Position numbers and translations under genes: made by a program | NCBI GenBank assembly: GCA_014804565.1 | Contig: JAAUZN010000065.1 | Span: 1-10,314, forward strand | Direction of reading: 5' to 3' | Origin: Lachnospiraceae bacterium | Lineage (GTDB): Bacteria > Bacillota > Clostridia > Lachnospirales > Lachnospiraceae | Length of the DNA stretch: 10,314 bases | The notes under the pieces: generated by a model | Told to the model about the DNA's origin: nothing | What the model saw: the letters and a program-made list of their open reading frames with translations, nothing else | Databases searched by the model: none | Shown: positions 1 through 10,314 of the stretch, piece by piece | Numbering within the stretch: position 1 is the stretch's first letter | Layout of the letters: each line of letters begins with the position of its first letter

Positions 1-2
1 AA

Positions 3-1001
3 GCATTTTCATTAATTGATGGGCTGATTTGTGAAATAGAAAACTGTTATGAAAACAAACAAAGCATAATTGGACTTATGAAAACAATTAAAAGTATTAT
101 TCCCTATGTACTTCTTTTTTATTTTCGCAGTGGTGCATTGTTACAGGAATATTCAATGGATGCTGAAGAACCTAAAAATACGAAAGTTGAAAGAATGCTT
201 ATGAATATAATGGATGTTAATTATATTCGCGGATTGAAGAATACCATTTGTAATTATTATAAGTGTGGAATAATTGTTGATGAGGAAGAACGTTTTTTGT
301 TGAGCGATCAGTATATTTCTACTGTTGCATTGATGTATAAAAACAGATTTTCAAATGCTTCAAATCGACAAATAGGTATGAAAGAAACAATGATCTTGAT
401 ACCATTAACATCAAAGTTTTATATTGTATTTTACAACGGAAGGGTTCCTTCTTATATTGGAGATAACGTGTTTTCTGTATTAAATGATGATAGTGTTAAT
501 GAAATAAATGATGTGATATTTCAGAATTCTTACGTGAAGTGCGTTGGAAAAAGTGAAAGCGAATTAGAGCGAGTTAAGAGTGTTTCACTTGAATCATGCA
601 GTCCAATAAAATGTATACTGAAATATAGTGATGGAAGCATTCAGGACAGGATAATAAAAAGGGAAGTCTTTTTATATGATGAGGATAAAGATATGAATGC
701 ACATTCTTATGAGTATATGTCTACCTATATTAGTGATATAAAGGGTAAATTAGGAAGAAATGATTTCTGCGTTTGTGGAAGTGGAATTAAGTATAAGAAG
801 TGTTGCATGAAGAAATATGAAACTGCTGCGCGGATATTAAGGGAAACGCAAAATCCTAGAATGCAGAATTATACGATCCCTGGAGTTTTGGTTACAGAGG
901 ATTCTATATTAGAATATCAGGGACCGCAAGAGAAAATGACTAATAGGCACGATAGGGGTGTAATAGATAAGATATTTGAAATGACAGAAAGTGATTCTTA
1001 A
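3..1001 (+). CDS. DUF4238-like protein with C-terminal SEC-C zinc motif, 5' partial
   Basis: The frame is open from base 3 without a stop, so the gene starts outside the window; the ATG at 78 is probably internal. The visible protein is about 332 residues. Its middle part (FLLSDQ, then ILIPLTSKFYIVFYNG, then VNEINDVIFQNSYVKCVG) has the pattern of DUF4238 proteins: a 'still in place' Asp, a 'PL' strand, and an Asn-rich helix before a final strand. The N-terminal HxxP region of that family would lie upstream. Near the C-terminus GRNDFCVCGSGIKYKKCC is a textbook SEC-C motif (Cys codons at 768, 774, 801 and 804), a small zinc-binding module first known from the SecA tail. A variable tail of about 60 residues follows. 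The gene is much richer in A and T than those from 1179 on, which suggests horizontal transfer. Function is unknown. The SEC-C call is secure; the DUF4238 call is from pattern memory. Confidence 0.75.
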   Translation, partial: AFSLIDGLICEIENCYENKQSIIGLMKTIKSIIPYVLLFYFRSGALLQEYSMDAEEPKNTKVERMLMNIMDVNYIRGLKNTICNYYKCGIIVDEEERFLLSDQYISTVALMYKNRFSNASNRQIGMKETMILIPLTSKFYIVFYNGRVPSYIGDNVFSVLNDDSVNEINDVIFQNSYVKCVGKSESELERVKSVSLESCSPIKCILKYSDGSIQDRIIKREVFLYDEDKDMNAHSYEYMSTYISDIKGKLGRNDFCVCGSGIKYKKCCMKKYETAARILRETQNPRMQNYTIPGVLVTEDSILEYQGPQEKMTNRHDRGVIDKIFEMTESDS

Positions 1002-1006
1002 AATCT

Positions 1007-1061
1007 TTAGTAGTAAGTTACAGCCCTTTTACTACTAACTTTACTACTAACAGGTAGTAAC
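1007..1061. repeat. Cluster of TTTACTACTAAC direct and inverted repeats
   Basis: TTTACTACTAAC occurs twice in perfect tandem (1028-1039 and 1040-1051). An inverted copy, TTAGTAGTAA, lies at 1007-1016, and a shorter inverted copy, GGTAGTAAC, at 1053-1061. The cluster starts six bases after the stop of the AT-rich gene, where composition changes. Closely spaced short repeats of this kind are typical of arm-type integrase binding sites at the end of an integrated element; that role is inferred. The outer arms could also form a hairpin, but no T-run follows. Confidence 0.7.
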
Positions 1062-1084
1062 AACTTGCTCCATTTTGCTATATT

Positions 1085-1113
1085 TTGTCAAGACGATAAG
1101 CCAGATAAATATT
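1085..1113 (+). promoter_or_regulatory. Possible sigma-A promoter of the phosphatase/oxidase pair
   Basis: TTGTCA (1085-1090), a 17-base spacer and AATATT (1108-1113) match the -35 element at 5 of 6 and the -10 element at 4 of 6. It sits about 60 bases before the phosphatase start. The region is AT-rich, so a chance match is possible. Confidence 0.35.
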
Positions 1114-1178
1114 TTACATATTCCCAGAATCCCTTGCAAAGCAGGGCATTTCACGACATATTAAGGAGATGGATAACA

Positions 1179-1643
1179 ATGATAAAAATACTTTTCGTCT
1201 GCCACGGCAACATCTGCCGCAGCACCATGGCCGAGAGCGTCTTCACCCACATGATCACCCAGCAGGGACTCGCCCAACAATTCCACATCGCCTCCGCAGC
1301 CACCAGCCGCGAAGAGATCGGCAACTCGCCGCACTACGGTACGGTGAATAAACTGCGTGCCGTAGGCATTCCTGTGGTTCCCCACCGTGCGGTGCAGATG
1401 ACAAAAGCGGATTATAAAAATTATGATTATATCATCGGCATGGACGGCATGAATATCCGAAATATGTTAAGGATTCTGGGGAGCGATCCGGAGCATAAGG
1501 TGTACAAGCTTCTTGATTTCGGCGCTCACTCCCGTGATATAGCGGATCCCTGGTACACAGGAAATTTCGATCTTACCTATGAGGACATCGTGGAGGGATG
1601 CGAGGCATTGCTTGCGTATCTGCAAAAGGAAGGGATGGTGTAA
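1179..1643 (+). CDS. Low-molecular-weight protein-tyrosine phosphatase
   Basis: This 154-residue protein has the usual family length of about 150-160. It opens with the phosphate-binding loop MIKILFVCHGNICRS: C8 is the nucleophile and R14 binds phosphate (C-X5-R-S). The general acid is D123 in ADPWYTG near the C-terminus. The enzyme hydrolyses phosphotyrosine through a cysteinyl-phosphate intermediate in the cytoplasm; members also act on phosphoarginine or in control of capsule kinases, and none of these substrates can be chosen from this context. The frame is open upstream to an ATG at 1065, but AAGGAG at 1163-1168 and the family N-terminus fix the start at 1179. The next gene follows after one base, so the two are probably cotranscribed and translationally coupled. 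Confidence 0.93.
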   Translation: MIKILFVCHGNICRSTMAESVFTHMITQQGLAQQFHIASAATSREEIGNSPHYGTVNKLRAVGIPVVPHRAVQMTKADYKNYDYIIGMDGMNIRNMLRILGSDPEHKVYKLLDFGAHSRDIADPWYTGNFDLTYEDIVEGCEALLAYLQKEGMV

Positions 1644-1644
1644 A

Positions 1645-2667
1645 ATGACCTATCAGGAATTGTTGGAAAAGGCAAAAGAAAATATTGGTACATACTGTAA
1701 GGCCTGTCCGGTCTGTAACGGGCTTGCCTGCAAAAATCAGATCCCTGGACCGGGAGCCAAGGGAACCGGAGACACAGCGGCCAGAAACTATGCGAAATGG
1801 CAGGAGATCCGGGTCAATATGGATACGCTGTGTGAGCAGAAAACGCCGGACACTTCTCTGGAGCTGTTTGGCAGAACCTTCCGCTATCCCTTTTTTGCGG
1901 GGCCGGTAGGGGCGGTCAGTCAGCATTACAGTGATAAGTATGATGATCTGTCCTACAATGATATCATGCTGAAAGCCTGCAGGGACAACGGAAGCGCGGC
2001 GTTTACCGGGGACGGTATCAATCCGGATGTGGTCAGACAGGCGGCGCAGGCTCTGGCGCAGGTGGACGGTCAGGGCATTCCAACGATCAAACCCTGGAAT
2101 ATGGAAACGATCCGGGAGAAGATGACACTCTGTAAGGAGGCGGGCTGCTTTGCACTGGCGATGGATGTGGACGCGGCGGGACTGCCTTTCCTCAAAAATA
2201 TGACGCCACCTGCGGGCAGCAAGAGTGTGGAACAGTTGAAAGAGATTGTACAGATGGCAGGTGTACCCTTTATTGTAAAGGGTATTATGACGGTAAAAGG
2301 CGCCTTGAAAGCCAAAGAAGCGGGTGCGGCGGCGATCGTTGTCAGCAATCATGGCGGTCGTGTGCTGGATCAGTGCCCGGCGACAGCGGAGGTGCTTACG
2401 GAAATTGCGGACGCTCTGCAGGGAAGCGATATGAAGATTTTGGTGGACGGCGGCATCCGGAGCGGTACGGATATTTTTAAGGCGCTTGCTATGGGAGCCG
2501 ACGGCGTGCTGATATGCAGACCCTTTGTGACGGCGCTTTATGGGGGCGGTGCCGAGGGCGTCAGTCTTTACATAGATAAGCTGGCGGGAGAACTTCGGGA
2601 TACCATGGAAATGTGCGGGGCAGGGACTCTGCGTGAGATTACCAGGGATATGGTGCGCATCGGATGA
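1645..2667 (+). CDS. FMN-dependent alpha-hydroxy-acid oxidising protein
   Basis: This is a 340-residue TIM-barrel enzyme of the lactate oxidase/glycolate oxidase/L-lactate dehydrogenase (cytochrome) family, which oxidises 2-hydroxy acids using FMN. Visible landmarks are the FMN-binding lysine K212 in IVKGIMT; SNHGGRVLD with catalytic H236 and substrate-binding R239; and the phosphate-binding stretch DGGIRSGTDIFKALAMGAD starting at D268. The order matches the family, though at 340 residues it is somewhat shorter than classic members at the N-terminus. Unusually, the N-terminus carries C18, C21, C24 and C29 (YCKACPVCNGLAC), which could hold a metal or iron-sulfur centre. The start at 1645 lies one base after the phosphatase stop, and AAGGAAGGG at 1628-1636 serves as ribosome binding site. 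The substrate is not readable from sequence; lactate is the default guess. A distant alternative is a type 2 isopentenyl-diphosphate isomerase, but the SNHGGR motif argues for the hydroxy-acid enzymes. Confidence 0.88.
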   Translation: MTYQELLEKAKENIGTYCKACPVCNGLACKNQIPGPGAKGTGDTAARNYAKWQEIRVNMDTLCEQKTPDTSLELFGRTFRYPFFAGPVGAVSQHYSDKYDDLSYNDIMLKACRDNGSAAFTGDGINPDVVRQAAQALAQVDGQGIPTIKPWNMETIREKMTLCKEAGCFALAMDVDAAGLPFLKNMTPPAGSKSVEQLKEIVQMAGVPFIVKGIMTVKGALKAKEAGAAAIVVSNHGGRVLDQCPATAEVLTEIADALQGSDMKILVDGGIRSGTDIFKALAMGADGVLICRPFVTALYGGGAEGVSLYIDKLAGELRDTMEMCGAGTLREITRDMVRIG

Positions 2668-2689
2668 CATGAACGGGCGAAATCATGTC
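2666..2689 (+). repeat. Short inverted repeat overlapping the oxidase stop codon
   Basis: GACATGA (2666-2672) and TCATGTC (2683-2689) are perfect 7-base complements around a 10-base loop. No T-run follows, so it is not a clear terminator and read-through into the next operon is possible. It may be coincidental. Confidence 0.3.
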
Positions 2690-2711
2690 GTGAATAAAGC
2701 GGCGCCTGCAT

Positions 2712-2738
2712 TAAGAGAAGGGGCAAATGATCCGATAT
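2712..2738 (+). promoter_or_regulatory. Near-consensus sigma-D/sigma-28 (motility) promoter
   Basis: TAAG (2712-2715), exactly 15 bases, then TCCGATAT (2731-2738) compares with the Bacillus sigma-D consensus TAAA-N15-GCCGATAT: 3 of 4 and 7 of 8 matches at the ideal spacing. It lies about 55 bases before the start of a three-gene operon whose second product resembles a flagellar cap protein, which strengthens the call. No convincing sigma-A promoter is seen in the same gap (2668-2792). Confidence 0.62.
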
Positions 2739-2792
2739 TTATTATAGAAATGGCGAAGTAGATATACTGTCATGGGACAGGAGGAACATAGG

Positions 2793-3914
2793 ATGCAGGT
2801 TAAGATAGGAAATAACGAGAATCAGACAATCAACACAAGTCTGCAGGCACAGGAGAAAGCGGCGAAAGGCGCGCGCAAGGAAGCGGTGAAAAGGAAGAAC
2901 ACCATTTTTGCGGGTGATCTGCCTATAAATAAAGATCCGATCGAGTTACGCAAGCAGCAGGCGCAGAAGAAGGCCATGAAGTTTGTGAAGGATGCCTGGG
3001 CGGGTGACCGCAAGCTGGATCAGAGTCAGGAGGAGATCCGTGCGAAGCTCAGAGAACTGCTGGATGAGTCAGAGGCTAATCAAGAGCTTGCGCAGGGCAA
3101 CACGGAGAGAATAAAAAATCTACGCCAGAAGTACGGTGTGGATGCAGATTCGCAGGAACAGAAGGATCTGGATTTGCTTATGAAAGCGGCGAACCAGGAA
3201 TCTCTCACGGAGGATGAGGAAGCAAGATTGGCTGAGATGGGCCCCCAGAGGGAGTATCTGGCATTGCTTTCGAAGAAGATGATTTCTACGGAACCTTTTA
3301 CGGAGAGTGATAAGGCAAGGTTGGACGAACTGGGGGAATCGTTGACGGAGTATCAGCGGAGTTGTCTGGAGATCAATGAAGAGCGGTCTGTCTATCAGAG
3401 AAGGGACGCGCGTACGCAGAATTATATACAGGAGCTCCAGTCCTCCCTCACGGATATGAAGATTGAGCGGTTAAAATACCACAAAATGGTGGATGCCCAG
3501 GAGAAAGCCGATAAGGTCATGGAGCAGGCCAGTGAGGAGATTGTGGGTCTTTTAGTGGATGAAGCCAAAGATCATGTGGATGAGACCTACGAGGAGCAGA
3601 GAGAAGCGGCGGAGAAGAAGGCCGAGGAGAAGGAAGAGCAGGAAGAGAAGCAGGAGAAGATAGAGAAACAGAGGGAACTGATCGAGGCTCGTGTGGATGC
3701 CGCACAGGAGCAGACTCACGAGGCGAGGGAAGCACAGAGAGAGCAGGAAAGAGACGCCAGAGAAGAGGCACAACTCATGAAGGATATGGCTGAGGGCGGA
3801 CTGGATGTTGCAGGTACAAGCGCTGCGGTGAAAGCGGAGATCAAGGATATGCTGCAGAAGATGAAGCTGATCGAGGCGGATATCAAGGGCATTGAGGTGG
3901 ACGAGGAAATATAA
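2793..3914 (+). CDS. Unrecognised charged coiled-coil protein, first gene of putative motility-regulon operon
   Basis: This 373-residue cytoplasmic-looking protein has no signal peptide or membrane segment. I do not recognise its family. Residues 1-70 contain a less repetitive stretch (NTIFAGDLPINKDP, then a basic helix). Residues about 136-181 hold an internal repeat: LTEDEEARLAEMG (138-150) and FTESDKARLDELG (169-181), 31 residues apart. Residues about 262-335 are a nearly pure Glu/Lys/Arg/Gln/Ala helix expected to form a long coiled coil, and a short amphipathic C-terminal helix follows (VKAEIKDMLQKMKLIEADIKG). An in-frame ATG exists at 2772, but AGGAGG at 2779-2784 lies eight bases before the ATG at 2793, which decides the start. 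The next two genes follow on the same strand with gaps of 33 and 5 bases. Such proteins often act as scaffolds, export chaperones or length rulers; that is speculation here. Confidence 0.85.
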   Translation: MQVKIGNNENQTINTSLQAQEKAAKGARKEAVKRKNTIFAGDLPINKDPIELRKQQAQKKAMKFVKDAWAGDRKLDQSQEEIRAKLRELLDESEANQELAQGNTERIKNLRQKYGVDADSQEQKDLDLLMKAANQESLTEDEEARLAEMGPQREYLALLSKKMISTEPFTESDKARLDELGESLTEYQRSCLEINEERSVYQRRDARTQNYIQELQSSLTDMKIERLKYHKMVDAQEKADKVMEQASEEIVGLLVDEAKDHVDETYEEQREAAEKKAEEKEEQEEKQEKIEKQRELIEARVDAAQEQTHEAREAQREQERDAREEAQLMKDMAEGGLDVAGTSAAVKAEIKDMLQKMKLIEADIKGIEVDEEI

Positions 3915-3947
3915 GACTAAAAAGACAGACGGAAAAGGGGTATTGTT

Positions 3948-4676
3948 ATGAGAGTCACAAGAAATTACAGAAATAGTATGGTAAATCCCAGAAAGAACAG
4001 TAAAAATGAGCAGGCGTCGCTTATACAGAATGCCTTAAAGCGCAACAGCACCAGCAGCCGTGCGAGCAGACTGGCGAGTATTTTGGGAAATAAGAACACC
4101 TCCACGACCAGTGCCCTGGCAGGAAGGGATTTTATCACTTCCACTGCGAAGTCGCAGAAGTTTTACTATGATATGCAATATCACGCAAATCAGGTAGAGG
4201 AGTATGCGGATGCGCTGAAGAGTTCCAATAAGAACTCTGTCTACGACAAGGCGAGAGAGAGCGGCAGCACAGAGCAGATCGTGTCAGATATTAAGGGCTT
4301 TGTGGCACAGTATAACAATATGTTAAGCGACTTGGAGGAATCCGGAACCAGAGCGGATTCCAGTATTTTAAGCCAGATCAATAGTATGGCAAGATTGGCG
4401 GAAAAGGATCTGGCGGCTACGGGTATTTCCCGGAAGTCGGACGGCACGCTGGTGATCGATGAGGAGAAGCTGGCGGCGGCAGATGTGGATACACTGGAGA
4501 AGGTATGGGGCGGCAGCGGATTTGCCTCTAAGGCGAGCACCAAGGCAGGCACTGTGGCGGCGACAGCGGAGAAGAACATTGAGGCGGAGAAGAGCAGCGT
4601 CTACAGTCCTTTTGACAGGGCGAATCTCTACAGCAGTTCTAATTCTGCCGGGAAGTACTTTAACTATCGCAGGTAA
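3948..4676 (+). CDS. FliD C-terminal-domain-like protein, truncated family relative
   Basis: This is a 242-residue protein without signal peptide or membrane segments. Residues about 110-192 follow the layout of the C-terminal domain of flagellar cap/hook-associated protein 2 (FliD): a helix IVSDIKGFVAQYNNMLSDL, a second helix, then LAATGISRKSDGTLVIDEEKL, and finally VWGGSGFASK. In FliD these read roughly 'FV.aYN.l', 'La.iGi....G.l.iDe.kL' and 'lF.G..GfA'. FliD proteins are usually well over 400 residues and have an N-terminal polymerisation domain that is absent here. The N-terminus (1-60) is basic and rich in Ser, Asn and Arg; the C-terminus is rich in Ser, Tyr and Asn and ends NYRR. The start at 3948 follows AAAAGGGG at 3933-3940. 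The likeness suggests a flagellum-associated or exported filament-binding protein, consistent with the upstream sigma-D-like promoter. The likeness is by eye, not by profile search. Confidence 0.8.
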   Translation: MRVTRNYRNSMVNPRKNSKNEQASLIQNALKRNSTSSRASRLASILGNKNTSTTSALAGRDFITSTAKSQKFYYDMQYHANQVEEYADALKSSNKNSVYDKARESGSTEQIVSDIKGFVAQYNNMLSDLEESGTRADSSILSQINSMARLAEKDLAATGISRKSDGTLVIDEEKLAAADVDTLEKVWGGSGFASKASTKAGTVAATAEKNIEAEKSSVYSPFDRANLYSSSNSAGKYFNYRR

Positions 4677-4681
4677 AGCGG

Positions 4682-5419
4682 ATGAATCATATAAACTGGG
4701 TACAGCAGAGCGAAGATTATAAGACGGAATACCATGTTTTGAAATGGAAGAGTTCTCATTTCCATGAGCCCTACGCGAGGCGGAATGTAGGCAATATGCC
4801 AAAGCAGCCCAGCGCTGCCGCTGCTGCGGCCGCTGAGGAGATGAAGACTGAGGCGGAAGGACTGGCATTAGGGCTTGCGGATAAACGAAAGAGCGGGACT
4901 CGTCCCGGCTTTGGCATGGGCGATTACATAGCACAGGGAGCGTCCGGAGAAGACAGAGGGCGCGACGGTGTGAGCATCTCGGCTCAGGGTACCAGGGAAC
5001 AGAACGCCGCAGTGCAGGCACAGATCGCGGTACAGAGTGTAAGTCAGACTGCCGTGCAGGCGGCCCAGATTCATGCGGCGGAGGCAGTGGTGGTGTCGCC
5101 GGCGGATGAGACCACGGCAGTGGAGGCAGAAGAGGAGCGGGCGAACCGGGAGAATACCACGGTAGCGGAGACAGGACGGGGGAATATCCGTAACCGTCTT
5201 AAAGAGAGCGCCAAGCGGTTACAGGAGGCGTATCAGAGACAAAAAGAAAAAGCGGCAAAGCTGTTGCCGCTTAAACAGATCAAAGAGGAAAAGCCCAGGG
5301 AAAAAGCGAAGGGCACACGGATGGCAGACAAGGAGGCAATGCTCTCCATGCAGGCCGAAAATCATTATCTGTTAGATTCCTACGATCATAATGGAAACTA
5401 CAGCACGCTAGGGAAATAG
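4682..5419 (+). CDS. Unrecognised Ala/Gln-rich protein with basic tail, third gene of operon
   Basis: This 245-residue protein belongs to no family I recognise. Residues 1-39 have normal complexity with several aromatics (INWVQQ, YHVLKWKSSHFHEPYARR). Residues 40-160 are low-complexity, with a run of seven Ala (45-51) and Ala/Gln/Val repeats that look disordered or loosely helical. Residues about 168-212 are a strongly basic helix (RNRLKESAKRLQEAYQRQKEKAAK). The end is again of normal complexity (ENHYLLDSYDHNGNYSTLGK) and looks like a short conserved motif. The gap to the preceding gene is only five bases, and its ribosome binding site is weak (AGG at 4671-4673, overlapping the previous stop), so translational coupling is likely. 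Alternation of ordered ends with a flexible middle would suit a linker or adaptor; this is inference. Bases 5241-5272 within the gene also form a terminator for the opposite strand. Confidence 0.78.
   Translation: MNHINWVQQSEDYKTEYHVLKWKSSHFHEPYARRNVGNMPKQPSAAAAAAAEEMKTEAEGLALGLADKRKSGTRPGFGMGDYIAQGASGEDRGRDGVSISAQGTREQNAAVQAQIAVQSVSQTAVQAAQIHAAEAVVVSPADETTAVEAEEERANRENTTVAETGRGNIRNRLKESAKRLQEAYQRQKEKAAKLLPLKQIKEEKPREKAKGTRMADKEAMLSMQAENHYLLDSYDHNGNYSTLGK
5241..5272 (-). terminator. Intrinsic terminator on minus strand, embedded in convergent coding sequence
   Basis: Read on the minus strand, AGCGGCAA (5271-5264) pairs perfectly with TTGCCGCT (5258-5251) around a five-base loop; one more A:T pair extends the stem. 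The tract TTTTCTTTTT follows at once (5250-5241). On the plus strand there is no T-run behind the stem. It is about 150 bases beyond the stop of the minus-strand aldo/keto reductase and the only strong candidate to end its transcript. Confidence 0.72.
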
Positions 5420-5420
5420 A

Positions 5421-6599
5421 TCAGTTCCACTTTACCAGCTTGTGGGCAAGTTTCAGCGCGATGCGCATATAAAAGGGCTGTAAGGCCTTTTTTGCGTTTT
5501 GCAGCTCCTTACGAATCTCAATATGCTGGGGACAATGCTTTTCACAGGCGCCGCACTGGATACATTTGTCCACAGAGGCGGGATTCTTTTTCAGGGAAGT
5601 GACTTGCGCGTACTCAAACCGTGTAGACAGCTTTTTGGCATTGGCCGTCTGGTTATAGCAGCGAAAAGCGGTAGGGATATCCACCCCCTGCGGGCAGGGC
5701 ATACAATAACCGCAGCCGGTACAGCCCACCTTCAGGTTCGCGTTTATCTTTGCACGTAACGTCTGAATCATGCTGTGATCGCTTTCCGTGAAAGCGCCTG
5801 CTTTCGCGGCGCACGCGCTGTCTATATTCTGCTGCACCATCTCCAGGGAATTCATGCCGGAGAGTACACAGGTCACCTCAGGCTGATCCCACAGCCAGTG
5901 AAAAGCCCACTCGGCAGGAGTACGTTTTACGGGATGAACTGTGAGCACCTCCTTGGCGGCATCGGGCAGATTTACCAGTCTGCCGCCGCGCAGAGGCTCC
6001 ATGATGACCACCGGAATGCTTTTGTCGTGGGCATAATGAAGACCTTTTCTCCCGGCCTGAGTATGTTCGTCAAAATAATTATATTGTATCTGACAGAAAT
6101 CCCAGTCGTAGGCATCGATCAGAGACTTGAAGGTGGCAGTGTCGCCGTGGAAGGAGAAACCGATGTTGCGAATGGCGCCTGTTTTCTTTTTCTCGGCGAT
6201 CCAGGATTCTATTCCGATGCTCTTCAGCCGGTTCCAGACATTCACATCAAAGAGCATATGCATCAGATAATAATCTATATGATCTGTCCGCAGACGTTTG
6301 AGCTGCTCGTTGAACAGCTTTTCTATGGACGCCTCATTTTTTAGCATGTAGTAGGGGAGCTTGGTGGCAATATATACCTGATCCCGGCAATGGTTGCGCT
6401 CTAGGATCGTGCCGAGGGCCTCCTCGCTGCCGCCGTAAATGTAGGCGGTGTCGAAATAGTTGACACCGTTTTCGATGGCAAGCATGACTTCCTTCTCGGC
6501 CTTTTCCAGATTGATCCTGCCGCCGGTGCCGGAGAACCGCATACATCCGTAACCGAGGATGGATACCTCAGTGCCGTCTTTCATTTTTCTATACTGCAT
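5421..6599 (-). CDS. Aldo/keto reductase with C-terminal 4Fe-4S ferredoxin domain
   Basis: The 392-residue protein joins an aldo/keto reductase barrel (about 1-285) to an iron-sulfur domain (about 290-365). The catalytic tetrad is visible as D50 and Y55 (YFDTAYIYG), K80 (IATKLP) and H114 (YYLMHML). The tail has two cysteine sets: C293, C296, C299, C302 followed by Pro, and C346, C349, C352, C356 followed by Pro, as expected for two 4Fe-4S clusters. This architecture is common in anaerobic Firmicutes and is usually annotated as an 'aldo/keto reductase, 4Fe-4S binding'; the physiological substrate is not known. The clusters imply electron exchange with ferredoxin or flavodoxin rather than NADPH alone. 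An AGGAGG ribosome binding site lies at 6606-6611 on the minus strand. It has its own promoter (6624-6652), and its stop is one base from that of the convergent operon. Confidence 0.93.
   Translation of the reverse strand: MQYRKMKDGTEVSILGYGCMRFSGTGGRINLEKAEKEVMLAIENGVNYFDTAYIYGGSEEALGTILERNHCRDQVYIATKLPYYMLKNEASIEKLFNEQLKRLRTDHIDYYLMHMLFDVNVWNRLKSIGIESWIAEKKKTGAIRNIGFSFHGDTATFKSLIDAYDWDFCQIQYNYFDEHTQAGRKGLHYAHDKSIPVVIMEPLRGGRLVNLPDAAKEVLTVHPVKRTPAEWAFHWLWDQPEVTCVLSGMNSLEMVQQNIDSACAAKAGAFTESDHSMIQTLRAKINANLKVGCTGCGYCMPCPQGVDIPTAFRCYNQTANAKKLSTRFEYAQVTSLKKNPASVDKCIQCGACEKHCPQHIEIRKELQNAKKALQPFYMRIALKLAHKLVKWN
5471..5493 (+). terminator. Possible plus-strand terminator inside the reductase gene
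   Basis: AAAAGG (5471-5476) pairs with CCTTTT (5486-5491) over a nine-base loop, and a six-T run covers 5488-5493. The stem is short and mostly A:T, so the call is weak. It lies 52 bases after the stop of the three-gene operon and no better candidate is seen nearby. Confidence 0.35.
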
Positions 6600-6623
6600 A
6601 ATATACCTCCTGCTGTTGTTCTT

Positions 6624-6652
6624 ATTATAAATAGGTTCGTACCGGAAGTCAA
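6624..6652 (-). promoter_or_regulatory. Sigma-A promoter of the aldo/keto reductase
   Basis: On the minus strand TTGACT (6652-6647), a 17-base spacer and a perfect TATAAT (6629-6624) precede the gene, giving a leader of about 17-20 bases that carries the AGGAGG site. The 5-of-6 and 6-of-6 matches make this a strong constitutive-type promoter. Confidence 0.82.
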
Positions 6653-6767
6653 ATGTGAAGCATTTTGCTTTTACTCATAAGTTTTTCGTGTGATTTGTAT
6701 GCCTTATACAGAGTGTAATAGATATATAGATAAAAATAAAATAATTTACAAAAAAATAAAATAAATA

Positions 6768-6796
6768 TTGAATATGCGTTGACTCTCTGCTATAGT
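6768..6796 (+). promoter_or_regulatory. Sigma-A promoter of the GH43 gene with upstream A/T tract
   Basis: TTGAAT (6768-6773), a 17-base spacer and TATAGT (6791-6796) match the consensus at 5 of 6 in the -35 box (TTGAAT against TTGACA differs in two places, so 4 of 6) and 5 of 6 in the -10 box. An A/T-rich run from about 6721 to 6767, with several A-tracts, lies directly upstream and could act as an UP element or bent DNA. A TTGACT at 6779-6784 lies inside the spacer but has no good -10 at proper distance. The rest of the 6653-6720 gap shows nothing I can call. Confidence 0.65.
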
Positions 6797-6840
6797 TTTA
6801 GGTAAGAGGAAACAACAGATTTCAGGTCAAATGAAGTATG

Positions 6841-6875
6841 GAGACGACGGGAATTTACGATTTTCGAGTCGTCTC
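6841..6875 (+). promoter_or_regulatory. Inverted repeat in the GH43 leader
   Basis: GAGACGAC (6841-6848) and GTCGTCTC (6868-6875) are perfect 8-base complements separated by 19 bases. The second arm ends five bases before the ribosome binding site GGAGGG (6881-6886). It may act as an operator for a dimeric regulator or as an RNA hairpin controlling translation. No T-run follows, so it is not a terminator. Confidence 0.5.
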
Positions 6876-6890
6876 GGAACGGAGGGTTAA

Positions 6891-8528
6891 ATGAGAAGGA
6901 AAGGACTTACGCTCTGTGGGCTTGGCGTCCTGCTTGTGTTCGGGCTTATGGCCTGCGGCACATCGCAGGATACGGGAACATCCGGAAGTGCCGGGGCAGA
7001 CACAGATGCGGGTACAGAGGAGGAAGCGACAGTGGCTATGGAGGAGAGCGGAGCGGGCGGGCTGCCCGTGGATTTGGATTTTTCGGTAAATTACGACGGG
7101 ATCAAGACGGCGAAGATCGATGCGGGCGTCAGTGTGCACGACCCCTCTATCGTAAAGGTGGACGGGAAATATTACATATTCGGTTCCCATATGTCCACAG
7201 CGGTATCGGAGGATCTGCGTACATGGACATCTCTGGGAGACGGCTATAAGGTGAAGGATCAGATCTACTATGAGCTGATGGCCAATAAGGATGCCTTCGC
7301 CTACGCCGGGAGCAAAAACAGTGTGATTCCCACAGATGACAGGGGATGGCATGTGTGGGCGCCGGACGTGATCTACAATGAGGAGACAGGCTTATACTAT
7401 CTGTATTTCTGCACTTCCTCCACATGGAATGCGTCGAATCTGTGCTATGCCACCAGCGAGAACATCGATGGACCCTATGAATGGAAGGGGGCGTTGATCT
7501 ATTCCGGATTCACGGCGCAGACGCTGGATGACACGGATGTGGCGGAATATGTGGACCGGGATACCGCAAAGGACAGATATATTAAGAAAAGCAATGAGTA
7601 TAATTTTAATAAATACCCCAACGCCATCGATCCCACTGTGCTCTACGATGGGGATGGCAGACTGTGGATGGTCTACGGCTCCTGGTCGGGCGGTATGTAT
7701 CTGTTAGAACTGGACAAGAGCACAGGGGAAGTGATCCATCCTCAGGAGGACGAGACAAACCGGGTGGATCCTTACTTTGGGAAAAGGCTTCTTGGCGGCA
7801 ACCACAGTTCTATCGAGGGACCTTATATCCTCTACGATGAGGAGAGCGGCTACTATTATCTGTTTGTCTCTTATGGCGGATTAGCCAGAGAGGGCGGTTA
7901 TCAGATCCGTGTGTTCCGCTCAGAGACCATAGACGGGGATTATGTGGACATGAACGGCGAGTATCCTATGGATACAAACAATCCGGAGCATTATCCTTAT
8001 GGCCTTAAACTGTCCGGCAATTATTTCCTGCCGAGTCTGGAGATGGCTTATATGGCTACCGGCCACAATTCCGCTTTCATCGATGATGATGGCAAAAAGT
8101 ATATTGTAAACCATACCCGTTTTGACAATAAGACGGAGGAGCATGAGCCGAGAGTGCACCAGTTTATCGTCAATGAGGAAGGATGGCCCTGTATGCTGCC
8201 CTATGCGACGGACGGTGAGAGTGTATCGGAGAGCGGTTATAGTATGGCAGACGTGGCGGGAAGATACTATGTGATCAATCAGGGAACGGCTATTGACGCA
8301 GAGATCGCGCAGCCCTTTATCCTGTATCTGGACGAGAGCGGAAAGGTTTATGGAGATGGCGTGGAAGGCAGCTGGGAAATGAAGGATAACACTTGCTATA
8401 TGAAGGTTTCCTATCAGGGCACGGATTACAGCGGTGTATTCTGCCAGATGAATGACGAGGCGGGAACGCAGGTTATGACCTTCAGTGCGGTAGGAAACAA
8501 TGAGAGCGTCTGGGGCGTGAAATATTAA
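6891..8528 (+). CDS. GH43-family lipoprotein, likely arabinan endo-1,5-alpha-L-arabinosidase
   Basis: This 545-residue surface enzyme starts with a lipoprotein signal (MRRKGL, hydrophobic stretch, LMAC with lipidated C22), followed by a Gly/Ser/Thr/Glu linker to about residue 60. The five-bladed propeller of glycoside hydrolase family 43 follows. D84 in VHDPSIVK is the general base, D247 in AIDPTVLYD the pKa-tuning Asp, and E309 in SSIEGPYI the general acid. WHVWAPDVIY and NHTRF-HEPRVHQF are further family signatures. Residues about 450-545 (GRYYVINQGTAIDAEIAQP to the end, VWGVKY) resemble the beta-rich C-terminal domain of large endo-arabinanases of the Bacillus Abn2 kind. The likely activity is cleavage of alpha-1,5-arabinan backbones outside the cell. 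Other GH43 activities such as arabinofuranosidase or xylosidase are less likely given the C-terminal domain. It stands alone, between its own promoter and a strong terminator. Confidence 0.9.
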   Translation: MRRKGLTLCGLGVLLVFGLMACGTSQDTGTSGSAGADTDAGTEEEATVAMEESGAGGLPVDLDFSVNYDGIKTAKIDAGVSVHDPSIVKVDGKYYIFGSHMSTAVSEDLRTWTSLGDGYKVKDQIYYELMANKDAFAYAGSKNSVIPTDDRGWHVWAPDVIYNEETGLYYLYFCTSSTWNASNLCYATSENIDGPYEWKGALIYSGFTAQTLDDTDVAEYVDRDTAKDRYIKKSNEYNFNKYPNAIDPTVLYDGDGRLWMVYGSWSGGMYLLELDKSTGEVIHPQEDETNRVDPYFGKRLLGGNHSSIEGPYILYDEESGYYYLFVSYGGLAREGGYQIRVFRSETIDGDYVDMNGEYPMDTNNPEHYPYGLKLSGNYFLPSLEMAYMATGHNSAFIDDDGKKYIVNHTRFDNKTEEHEPRVHQFIVNEEGWPCMLPYATDGESVSESGYSMADVAGRYYVINQGTAIDAEIAQPFILYLDESGKVYGDGVEGSWEMKDNTCYMKVSYQGTDYSGVFCQMNDEAGTQVMTFSAVGNNESVWGVKY

Positions 8529-8551
8529 GAATAGCAGTTAAAAAGCAAAAG

Positions 8552-8587
8552 AAAGCCTGCGGGGAATTGAATCCCGCAGGCTTTTTT
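8552..8587. terminator. Strong bidirectional intrinsic terminator between convergent genes
   Basis: AAAGCCTGCGGG (8552-8563) and CCCGCAGGCTTT (8573-8584) form a perfect 12-base stem with a nine-base loop. Six T follow on the plus strand (8582-8587). On the minus strand the stem is followed by TTTCTTTTGCTTTTT, so it can also end the convergent regulator transcript. Confidence 0.93.
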
Positions 8588-8607
8588 AATCTGCTTATCA
8601 TACTCAG

Positions 8608-9534
8608 CTATTCGTTCTCCTCCATAGGTGCATAGTGGATATTCACCTTGATATCCTGACCGTAGTTGCCGAAGGTTTTTCCGAAGATGGTCAGCCCGCC
8701 TACATGCTCCGCATCGTCATCCACTGCCAGTCGGAAGCGGAGGCTGCTGCGGTAATCCAGATGCAGGCTGTCAATGGTCACATCGGAAATCTTAAGGCCG
8801 TCGATAAAGGTGCCCTTGCGGTTGACCACGAGAAGCTTCAAAAGACCGTACTGATTCCAGTTAGGGAACCACCAGTCAGGGGTGAAGAGCCCTCTGGAAT
8901 CACCGAAATCTCCGGGGGAGAGCCAGTTTCCGATACACACATCATTTAAATAGAAGGAGATATCGGAGGGCCATACGTTGTTGACGCCGGGCGCCTCAGA
9001 GCTTAACTCCGCGGAGATGGTAAGCTGGGTGATCTTCTGGAAGCTGGGTATAAAATTCGGGATGTTGTATTCCACAAATCCTTTTGTAAACCAGAGAATA
9101 TCGGCGCTGTAGCGGTCCGGATGATCAAAGTAGCGGGAATCGTCCACCTCACCGATCAATGCCTTATCGGAGGCCAGGCCGCAGGTAGGGCAGATGCGGT
9201 AAACGGAGTAATGACCGACCTTCACATCGGTGCTGTATACGTTCAGGATGTCCTCCTGTCTTTCCAGATCGATTAGGATCTTATCCAGATGCACAGAGCA
9301 GATCTTCTGGTTGCCGTGTCCTGCCGACTCGGTGGAAATGGAGATGAGGCCGCAGCTTTCCAGTTTTTTGATATGGCTTGTCAGTGCACCGTTGGTAATG
9401 TTCAGTCGGGAGGCAAGCTCGTTCATGCTCATGCTGTTATTTTCCAGCAGTATATTTAAAAGTTCAATTCTGACATCGGAGCCCAGGGCTTTAAAGATGT
9501 CTAAACCGTCGGTCAATGAAGTGATGTGCAGCAA
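8608..9534 (-). CDS. ArsR-type winged-helix regulator with C-terminal beta-rich sensor domain
   Basis: The 308-residue protein begins with an ArsR-like winged helix-turn-helix (about 8-72): IFKALGSDVRIELLNILL, then the recognition region LNITNGALTSHIKKLESCGLI and a wing. A CPTC motif (C115, C118) follows; it is only one Cys pair, so it may be a structural zinc half-site or merely a loop. Residues about 165-302 are rich in alternating beta strands and aromatics (WPSDISFYLND, WWFPNWNQYG), in keeping with a jelly-roll or galactose-binding-like fold. Classic ArsR proteins are about 100 residues, so this is a much enlarged form that probably binds a ligand, perhaps a sugar. Translation starts at TTG (9534-9532), because GGGAGG at 9548-9543 lies eight bases before it and no ATG fits. 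The gene is convergent with the GH43 enzyme, suggesting but not proving that it controls arabinan use. Confidence 0.82.
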   Translation of the reverse strand: MLHITSLTDGLDIFKALGSDVRIELLNILLENNSMSMNELASRLNITNGALTSHIKKLESCGLISISTESAGHGNQKICSVHLDKILIDLERQEDILNVYSTDVKVGHYSVYRICPTCGLASDKALIGEVDDSRYFDHPDRYSADILWFTKGFVEYNIPNFIPSFQKITQLTISAELSSEAPGVNNVWPSDISFYLNDVCIGNWLSPGDFGDSRGLFTPDWWFPNWNQYGLLKLLVVNRKGTFIDGLKISDVTIDSLHLDYRSSLRFRLAVDDDAEHVGGLTIFGKTFGNYGQDIKVNIHYAPMEENE

Positions 9535-9573
9535 GGTGATTTCCTCCCAGTAGATAGAAACAAGTTTTATGAC

Positions 9574-9708
9574 TTTATAAAATACTATAGCAACAATGAT
9601 AACAATAAAATTATATACAAAAAATGTCTTTTCGTCAATTAAAGCTAAATAATTTCATATAAATTTGCACAAGGAAAAGGCGAAATAGTCTAAAATATTT
9701 TATAAAAT
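9574..9708. repeat. Two TTTATAAAAT palindromic sites flanking the regulator promoter
   Basis: ATTTTATAAAAT (9697-9708) is a perfect 12-base palindrome. ACTTTATAAAAT (9572-9583), on the other side of the promoter, matches it at 10 of 12. An overlapping palindrome TAAAATATTTTA covers 9691-9702. They could be operators for a dimeric regulator, but the whole stretch 9560-9710 is AT-rich and such palindromes arise easily there. Confidence 0.3.
9610..9638 (-). promoter_or_regulatory. Sigma-A promoter of the winged-helix regulator
   Basis: On the minus strand TTGACG (9638-9633), a 17-base spacer and a perfect TATAAT (9615-9610) lie about 75 bases before the TTG start. The long AT-rich leader leaves room for autoregulation. 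Confidence 0.8.
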
Positions 9709-9710
9709 GC

Positions 9711-9742
9711 AAAAAAGACGATCTCTCATCGGAGACCGCCTT
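9711..9742 (-). terminator. Intrinsic terminator of the symporter gene
   Basis: On the minus strand AAGGCGGTCTC (9742-9732) pairs with GAGATCGTCTT (9725-9715) over a six-base loop, with two G:U pairs, and is followed by six T (9716-9711). On the plus strand the same positions would be A:C mismatches, so the structure favours minus-strand transcription. It sits about 30 bases after the symporter stop and insulates the regulator gene. Confidence 0.83.
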
Positions 9743-9770
9743 TTGGCCTTCTATATATGTGAGCGACGGA

Positions 9771-10314
9771 TTATTTTCCCATTACCTCATCGAAAATCTG
9801 TGTGATCTTTTCATCGGGTGCCTTTGTCAGCAGAGAAACGATCACATTGACAAGGAGTGCCACAATGAATGCGGGAAGCAGTTCGTAGATGGCGAAAACG
9901 CCGCCCAGAGTAGCGATACCGTATTTCCACACAAAGACCATAACACCGCCCGCTATCATACCGGCGATGGCTCCCTGTTTGTTGGAGCGTTTCCAGAACA
10001 GAGCCAGAAGCACTACCGGGCCGAAGGCCGCGCCGAAACCGGCCCAGGCAAAGGATACGATAGTGAAAATGGAACTGTCAGGATCCTGGGCGATGAAGAC
10101 CGCGATCAGCGAGATGACGATGACCGTGATCCGGGCAATGCGCAGAGAAGTCTTGGTATCCAGTTTCTTTTTGCCGAAATCCTGCACCAGATTCTGAGAG
10201 ATACTGGATGCTGCAGCCAGCAGCTGGGAATCGGCGGTAGACATGGTAGCCGCCAGGATGCCGGATAGAATAACGCCCGCTATCAATGCAGGGATAATAC
10301 CGTAGGAGCTTAAA
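9771..10314 (-). CDS. Sodium:proline symporter-like protein, C-terminal part
   Basis: The frame is open to the window edge, so the N-terminal part lies outside; about 180 C-terminal residues are visible. IAGVILSGILAATMSTADSQLLAAASSISQNL is the conserved helix and MST-SQLL signature of PutP-type members of the sodium:solute symporter family. After it come a basic cytoplasmic loop (FGKKKLDTKTSLRIAR) and four more hydrophobic helices: VIVISLIAVFIA, a Gly/Phe-rich one with WAGFGAAFGPVVLLALFW, AIAGMIAGGVMVFVW, and LLPAFIVALLVNVIVSLL. It then ends in a short polar tail (KITQIFDEVMGK). The protein imports proline, or a related solute, with sodium. A terminator follows immediately, so it does not run into the regulator downstream. 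Its own promoter is outside the window. Proline is the best guess among family substrates; pantothenate or other members are less similar. Confidence 0.9.
   Translation of the reverse strand, partial: LSSYGIIPALIAGVILSGILAATMSTADSQLLAAASSISQNLVQDFGKKKLDTKTSLRIARITVIVISLIAVFIAQDPDSSIFTIVSFAWAGFGAAFGPVVLLALFWKRSNKQGAIAGMIAGGVMVFVWKYGIATLGGVFAIYELLPAFIVALLVNVIVSLLTKAPDEKITQIFDEVMGK

Follow-up and report, generated by a model that had tools for sequence, protein, structure and literature searches.

The stretch of DNA analyzed here, referred to as the window, comprises 10,314 nucleotides of a Lachnospiraceae bacterium (GenBank assembly GCA_014804565.1, contig JAAUZN010000065.1, positions 1 to 10,314 of the forward strand). 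It carries three close-packed genes, ORF1, ORF2, and ORF3 (Table 1), which probably constitute a late-flagellar sigma-D operon and the reduced form of a larger cassette with composite sigma-D/LytTR promoters. The full cassette would have the order ORF1 – LytTR response regulator – GHKL kinase – ORF2 – ORF3. Sigma-D (FliA) would transcribe it as a class 3, late-flagellar operon, in which each transcription entry (before ORF1, the regulator, and ORF2) consists of a LytTR-type operator at a fixed helical distance from a sigma-D -10 element. Its expression would require two conditions at once, a flagellum assembled as far as the sigma-D stage and an active LytTR regulator on the operator. The lineage of the window would have lost the kinase and then the regulator but retained the promoter, the operator, and the three products; its operator would now either serve a different LytTR protein of the same cell or be a remnant. 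ORF2, with ORF1 and ORF3, would most likely act on or through the flagellar export or filament machinery.

A preliminary description of this DNA had proposed a sigma-D-like promoter, TAAG-N15-TCCGATAT, at positions 2712-2738 upstream of ORF1, and had suggested looking for the motif in front of orthologues. The motif was re-read at this place, and it is conserved: 44 of 48 orf1 loci, nearly all of them from the genus, carry it with at least 10 of 11 positions matched, 33 of them at 11/11. One of the four loci that do not has only 5 nt of upstream sequence, and another comes from a different genus. With the same scan, the motif was found upstream of 0/41 orf3 genes, 0/37 kinase genes, and in 30/743 random stretches; it also stands before some regulator genes (16/40) and orf2 genes (10/69), which would have composite promoters of their own. 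In addition, five loci in which no ORF1 was detected (L169, L170, L172, L176, and L178) have an 11/11 motif that starts 54-105 bp upstream of the regulator. The ORF1 loci of other genera have the motif in 22 of 49 cases, against a background of 31/800. A sigma-28/sigma-D consensus of TAAA / MCGATAa is given for Butyrivibrio (PMC3720852, in part). The window operon resembles class 3 sigma-28/sigma-D operons (flagellins, flaG-fliD) in its -35 and -10 elements, their spacing, and their distance to the gene, and differs from them by upstream direct repeats placed at a fixed distance. On these comparisons, sigma-D control of the operon appears very well supported.

Co-occurrence with sigma-28 and flagellin, another check suggested at the outset, was computed in 397 genomes evenly drawn from the family, with cut-offs of E <= 1e-50 for FliA and E <= 1e-10 for an ORF2 relative. 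FliA was present in 208 genomes and an ORF2 relative in 100; 96 had both, and the four ORF2-positive genomes without FliA all have flagellin. Similarly, ORF1 relatives were detected in 72 genomes, of which 70 were FliA-positive and the other two belonged to the same four flagellin carriers. In this sample, ORF1 and ORF2 were therefore found only in genomes with FliA or flagellin. A few long FliD-like matches were counted as ORF2; when the four genomes concerned are dropped, FliA is present in 92/96. Within the genus, flagellin and FliA occur in 37/37 genomes, which leaves the comparison empty at that level. The 3.1 Mb genome of the window itself carries flagellin, FliA, and FliD_N genes. More generally, ORF2 relatives in 66 named loci come mostly from Lachnospiraceae, with a few metagenome-assembled genomes labelled otherwise and two strains (1xD42-87 and 0.1xD8-71). 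The earlier view of the operon as late-flagellar agrees with both lines of evidence, motif conservation and FliA/flagellin co-occurrence.

A single match to a sigma-D motif is weak evidence, and its position alone is not enough, because the loose form of the motif occurs 39 times in the window's genome, versus 15 times for a reversed-pattern control. This frequency could suggest that the match before ORF1 is fortuitous and that the operon is unrelated to flagella. We consider this highly improbable, since it is conservation that carries weight, across loci and genera and with clean controls, together with FliA in 96 of the 100 ORF2-positive genomes and flagellin in the remaining four. The chance of an 11/11 motif in the 200 nt upstream is 0.0005 (2000 shuffles), and such a motif arose 0.055 times per shuffled window. 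When 30 of the 39 loose matches were examined for a downstream gene, the three that stand before a recognized gene precede fliK (Flg_hook; 14-nt spacer), flaG-fliD, and one flagellin. Flagellin_N loci provided a weak positive control: the motif was found before one of five, and two of the others were not judgeable, one starting at a contig end and one having been scanned on the wrong strand.

Alignment of the promoters revealed a recurring GTCATGAAC further upstream. In the window, two 9-bp repeats, 12 apart, lie at 2666-2695, upstream of the sigma-D promoter. The pair matches GTCATGAAC-N12-GTCATGAAC at 15/18 positions (0.01 such pairs expected in a window, with a pair present in 3 of 200 shuffles), and the CGATA of the -10 box begins 37 bp beyond the operator end. 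LytTR sites are described as a pair of 9-11 nt repeats with 11-13 nt between them, and the regulators of this type mostly bind upstream of the -35 element and activate (PMC4847170 and PMC11347149, both in part). The window repeats correspond to this definition: two direct repeats, with the right spacing, upstream of the -35 element. The same arrangement emerges when no consensus is used. When the 75 bp preceding the -35 element were compared with themselves at periods of 12 to 32 bp, the best 9-mer match peaked at 21 bp only (mean 6.89/9, versus at most 5.23 at other periods), with self-matches of at least 8/9 in 17/44 loci at this period and in at most 2 at any other. Six loci that begin with the regulator likewise peak at period 21. 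With the consensus, a score of at least 14/18 was obtained in 22/54 loci, versus 0/1080 shuffles and 7/2160 random stretches.

These operators are distributed selectively within the cassette. Sites of at least 14/18 stand before 22/46 orf1 genes (230 bp searched) and, with 150 bp searched for the other genes, before 19/38 regulator genes, 12/61 orf2 genes, 0/35 kinase genes, and 0/43 orf3 genes; those before the regulator and orf2 are always in reverse orientation. In 1.6 Mb strand-bases of cassette loci, 30 of the 31 sites of at least 15/18 are in front of orf1, the regulator, or orf2. Every operator of at least 13 within 230 bp upstream is followed by CGATA, against a background of 283/3200 per 80 nt: at 28-29 bp before orf2 (37/37), at 29-30 bp before the regulator (25/25), and before orf1 (30/30) at 36-38 bp in 20 cases, 46-48 bp in 7, and 25-29 bp in 3. 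The main distances differ by about one helical turn. The -35 boxes before the regulator and orf2 look poor in our own reading (often GAAA-like or CTTTATT), as would be expected if an activator helps. A further observation concerns the -10 element before orf2, which is CCGATAT in five loci without the kinase (L123, L125, L126, L130, and L131); most kinase-bearing loci have ACGATAT or TCGATAT, which depart further from the sigma-D consensus, with exceptions such as L170.

Outside the cassettes, no site of at least 14 with composite spacing was found in 772,006 bases, which represent parts of two genomes, one of them without the two-component genes, most of both genomes lying beyond this sample. 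Composites of at least 12/18 numbered 24 there, versus 20 at wrong distances, compared with 121 versus 14 in cassette loci. A wider composite-promoter regulon is not claimed on these counts, and in the window's genome no composite site was seen at the promoters of flaG-fliD, flagellin, and fliK. It could be argued that the repeats are the operator of another type of factor, or a structural element, and that sigma-D alone drives the operon, as the operator is kept in genomes without the cassette regulator. We hold this to be unlikely: the geometry is that of LytTR sites, the sites precede orf2 and the gene of the regulator itself but neither the kinase gene nor orf3, and the bases searched outside the cassettes contain none of at least 14 with such spacing. 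Control by a LytTR protein appears well supported, on the basis of this geometry and this choice of genes.

The preliminary description had proposed a late-flagellar or filament-associated module; it missed both the LytTR-type operators and the two-component genes of related operons. In many relatives, a Response_reg-LytTR regulator and a GHKL kinase (HATPase_c_5) stand between ORF1 and ORF2; both are absent from the window. In view of these genes and of the operators, the cassette is probably regulatory at least as much as structural. For 60 ORF2 rows placed in a tree, the locus carries both genes in 33 cases, the regulator alone in 5, the kinase alone in 1, and neither in 21. The window falls within a starred clade of 19 rows (16 with neither gene, 3 with the regulator only), in which some of the branches have no star; this clade is part of a larger starred one of 24 rows, where 5 rows have both genes. 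Assuming loss without regain, we infer that the kinase was lost first and the regulator several times later. The window's genome has no close orthologue of the cassette regulator: the nearest regulators found in it are 45-46% identical to a cassette regulator, and 37 further regulators, selected by profile, share 55-88% identity with the latter. Where a genome has the cassette's own regulator, this protein is a likely reader of the operator; in the window it is ruled out, as far as the genome was searched.

The cassette resembles GHKL-LytTR two-component systems of the AgrCA and VirRS type in its Response_reg and LytTR domains, in the HATPase_c_5 kinase of the relatives, and in its direct-repeat operators. 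It differs from them in that its two-component genes are part of a sigma-D operon that also contains a FliD-like gene, and in that both are missing from the window. The association with LytTR genes extends to other genera, for which 20 ORF2 neighborhoods, mostly the best-scoring ones, were inspected. In five of them, a LytTR gene lies immediately before the ORF2 relative, with gaps of 12-114 bp, and a sixth has a regulator-kinase pair in this place. Two genomes of another genus also have the order ORF1-regulator-kinase-ORF2. In loci L187, L188, L190, and L191, the LytTR proteins directly before the ORF2 relatives have 148-186 aa. They may be too short for a full receiver domain, and the kinase input may have been lost repeatedly.

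The resemblance of the middle protein to part of FliD, already pointed out in the preliminary description, is borne out. ORF2 matches FliD_C with 27.7 bits (cut-off 25.4), and FliD_C is found in 15/15 members of its family. FliD is also the best structural match of the predicted ORF2 model, with D2-D3 skipped: model positions 69-214 cover residues 43-411 of the FliD chain, with 142 aligned. In this comparison, the first FliD row alone stands clear of unrelated helical bundles. Foldseek places FliD at rank 4 (E 0.16, probability 0.97), which is not sufficient alone, and the best single stretch in a further comparison scores 22.6 bits; the assignment relies on several comparisons together. ORF2 shares with the filament cap FliD (HAP2) the helical leg fold of D1, a DGTLxxDxxxL stretch, and FliD_C. 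Unlike FliD, it has no FliD_N match (PF02465, none at E <= 1), no D2-D3 head (the whole protein has only 242 aa), and no confident terminal coiled-coil helices in the predicted model. The model is thus that of a FliD D1 leg domain without the head, and the earlier term 'cap-like' holds for the D1 fold and fails for the remainder of the cap.

The window's genome holds a separate FliD_N protein besides ORF2. Its fliD (G000:C60, L083:8657-11114) appears as two overlapping frames with many N, probably through assembly or masking and not as a broken gene. The same genome encodes further FliD_C proteins of 417 and 437 aa (G000:C86, L085:4759-6012, and G000:C69, L084:5336-6649), the one on G000:C86 having, in our own reading, a tandem pair of D1-like repeats and lacking a head. 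Headless or rearranged relatives of FliD may form a family. Elsewhere, an ORF2 relative is adjoined by a DUF6033 protein (L193:7182-7997), a domain on which a literature search found nothing.

Two hypotheses can be considered for the function of the products. The first is a structural late-flagellar module, whose products would be exported after hook completion and would sit on the filament, its tip, or a junction, with the LytTR system only regulating this decoration. We give it somewhat less than an even chance. The sigma-D promoter and the D1 fold of ORF2 are consistent with it, the more so as D1 is the functionally important domain of FliD and D2-D3 is dispensable (PMC8533109, in part). 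In addition, no hydrophobic stretch like Sec signals or membrane anchors is present, and the conserved ends of the low-confidence termini could be export or chaperone sites. However, ORF2 lacks a FliD_N match and a confident terminal coiled coil, the element that dictates compatibility with the filament in FliD (same source, in part), and the ORF2 relatives beside LytTR genes in other genera point to regulation. The second, to which we attach a tentative probability of about a third, is a cytoplasmic regulator: ORF2 would mimic the FliD leg, bind the chaperones of FliD or of flagellin or else the LytTR regulator, and thus signal the state of export to gene expression. The six other-genera loci with ORF2 behind a LytTR gene or a regulator-kinase pair argue for it, as do the recurring gene order in two genomes of another genus and the LytTR proteins whose receiver part is, in our own reading, reduced or missing. 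In contrast, a small literature search on FliD relatives did not find a FliD-derived regulator.

ORF1 and ORF3 matched no family in Pfam or NCBIfam, so that the earlier statement that no family was recognized stands for these two and is superseded for ORF2. The predicted fold of ORF1 is a helical hairpin, and for such helical models a missing assignment by structure shows nothing. CT398, HP0958, and the YscO homologue CT670 were considered as homologues of ORF1; since these matches were at or below the usual level of the tool for helical models, no ORF1 family is claimed. A match of ORF3 to TFIIA, at E 0.2, is far under the cut-off of that family. Its relatives have a C-terminal motif, YLLDSYDxxGxYSxLGK, in common, and a weak match to this C-terminal end alone was seen at L187:9432-10148, near an ORF2 relative of another genus. 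A phage origin was rejected, with only weak matches in PHROGs and a viral structure library.

The three genes are tightly packed, as first described, with gaps of 33 and 5 bases and no terminator-like site in either; on the + strand, two weak terminator-like sites lie within ORF1 and ORF2. The start of ORF1 at 2793 was preferred over the ATG at 2772 because of its ribosome binding site and a conserved MQ[IV] start. ORF3 stops one base short of a convergent aldo/keto reductase gene. A family search of the window proteins found no flagellar gene among the neighbors of the operon; at the left end of the window, positions 78-1001 encode a DUF4238 protein with a C-terminal SEC-C motif.

Table 1. 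Features of the operon and of its promoter region in the window.
Feature	Position	Strand	Remark
Operator half-site 1, GACATGAAC	2666..2674	+	LytTR-type direct repeat
Operator half-site 2, GTCGTGAAT	2687..2695	+	21 bp after half-site 1
Sigma-D -35 element, TAAG	2712..2715	+	Relatives carry TTAAGAAAA
Sigma-D -10 element, TCCGATAT	2731..2738	+	15-base spacer after TAAG
Ribosome binding site of ORF1, AGGAGG	2779..2784	+	Read from sequence
ORF1	2793..3914	+	373 aa; predicted helical hairpin/coiled coil; no Pfam or NCBIfam family
ORF2	3948..4676	+	242 aa; predicted stand-alone FliD D1-like protein without FliD_N and D2-D3
ORF3	4682..5419	+	245 aa; conserved ends; nearly confined to genus
Terminator-like hairpin 3' of operon	5471..5492	+	Inside 3' end of convergent aldo/keto reductase gene

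Besides the frequency of the loose motif, several observations weigh against the reading of the window as a reduced sigma-D/LytTR cassette. The motif (at least 10) is missing from 27 of the 49 ORF1 loci of other genera, and 19 ORF1 loci of other genera with a sigma-D motif have no period-21 signal. The 9-bp consensus was derived by eye from the same loci in which it was then counted, a circularity from which the period test is free, and many loci are near-copies, so that the counts are not independent events. Kinship is likewise ignored by the co-occurrence counts over the 397 genomes. Of the 208 FliA-positive genomes, 112 have no ORF2 match, which makes the ORF1-ORF3 module accessory and not core flagellar. 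Cysteine, unusual in axial flagellar proteins, is present in 8/10 aligned ORF1 relatives and 4/15 aligned ORF2 relatives. Finally, erosion of the operator after loss of the regulator was considered and rejected (median 12.5 versus 13, p = 0.48); as the operator is not clearly worse without the regulator, its reader is perhaps not the cassette's own regulator.

Taken singly, FliD-like proteins, sigma-D promoters, and LytTR systems are not new. A literature search by title and abstract, with subscription journals mostly outside its coverage, found no description of their union in one operon with composite promoters, and the term 'LytTR' is absent from the available part of a paper on motility genes of Roseburia and Eubacterium (PMC3720852). 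A bolder proposal, which we regard as rather unlikely, is a circuit that senses the status of the flagellum: LytTR-gated sigma-D promoters would be served by a regulator and a kinase from the same operon, ORF2 would be an exported or chaperone-captured reporter, and in some lineages the reporter would have persisted after loss of the kinase and, later, of the regulator.

Sigma-D RNA polymerase is usually thought to work without activators, and sigma-28 promoters are seen as simply responding to hook completion. The sequences lead to the prediction that both inputs would be needed at the promoters described here, with a distance from operator to -10 element (28-30, ~37, or ~47 bp) set by helical phase. 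If true, a family of sigma-D promoters with a rigidly phased LytTR operator, in an operon that encodes a headless FliD together with a two-component system of its own, would represent a second checkpoint in the flagellar program of gut bacteria.

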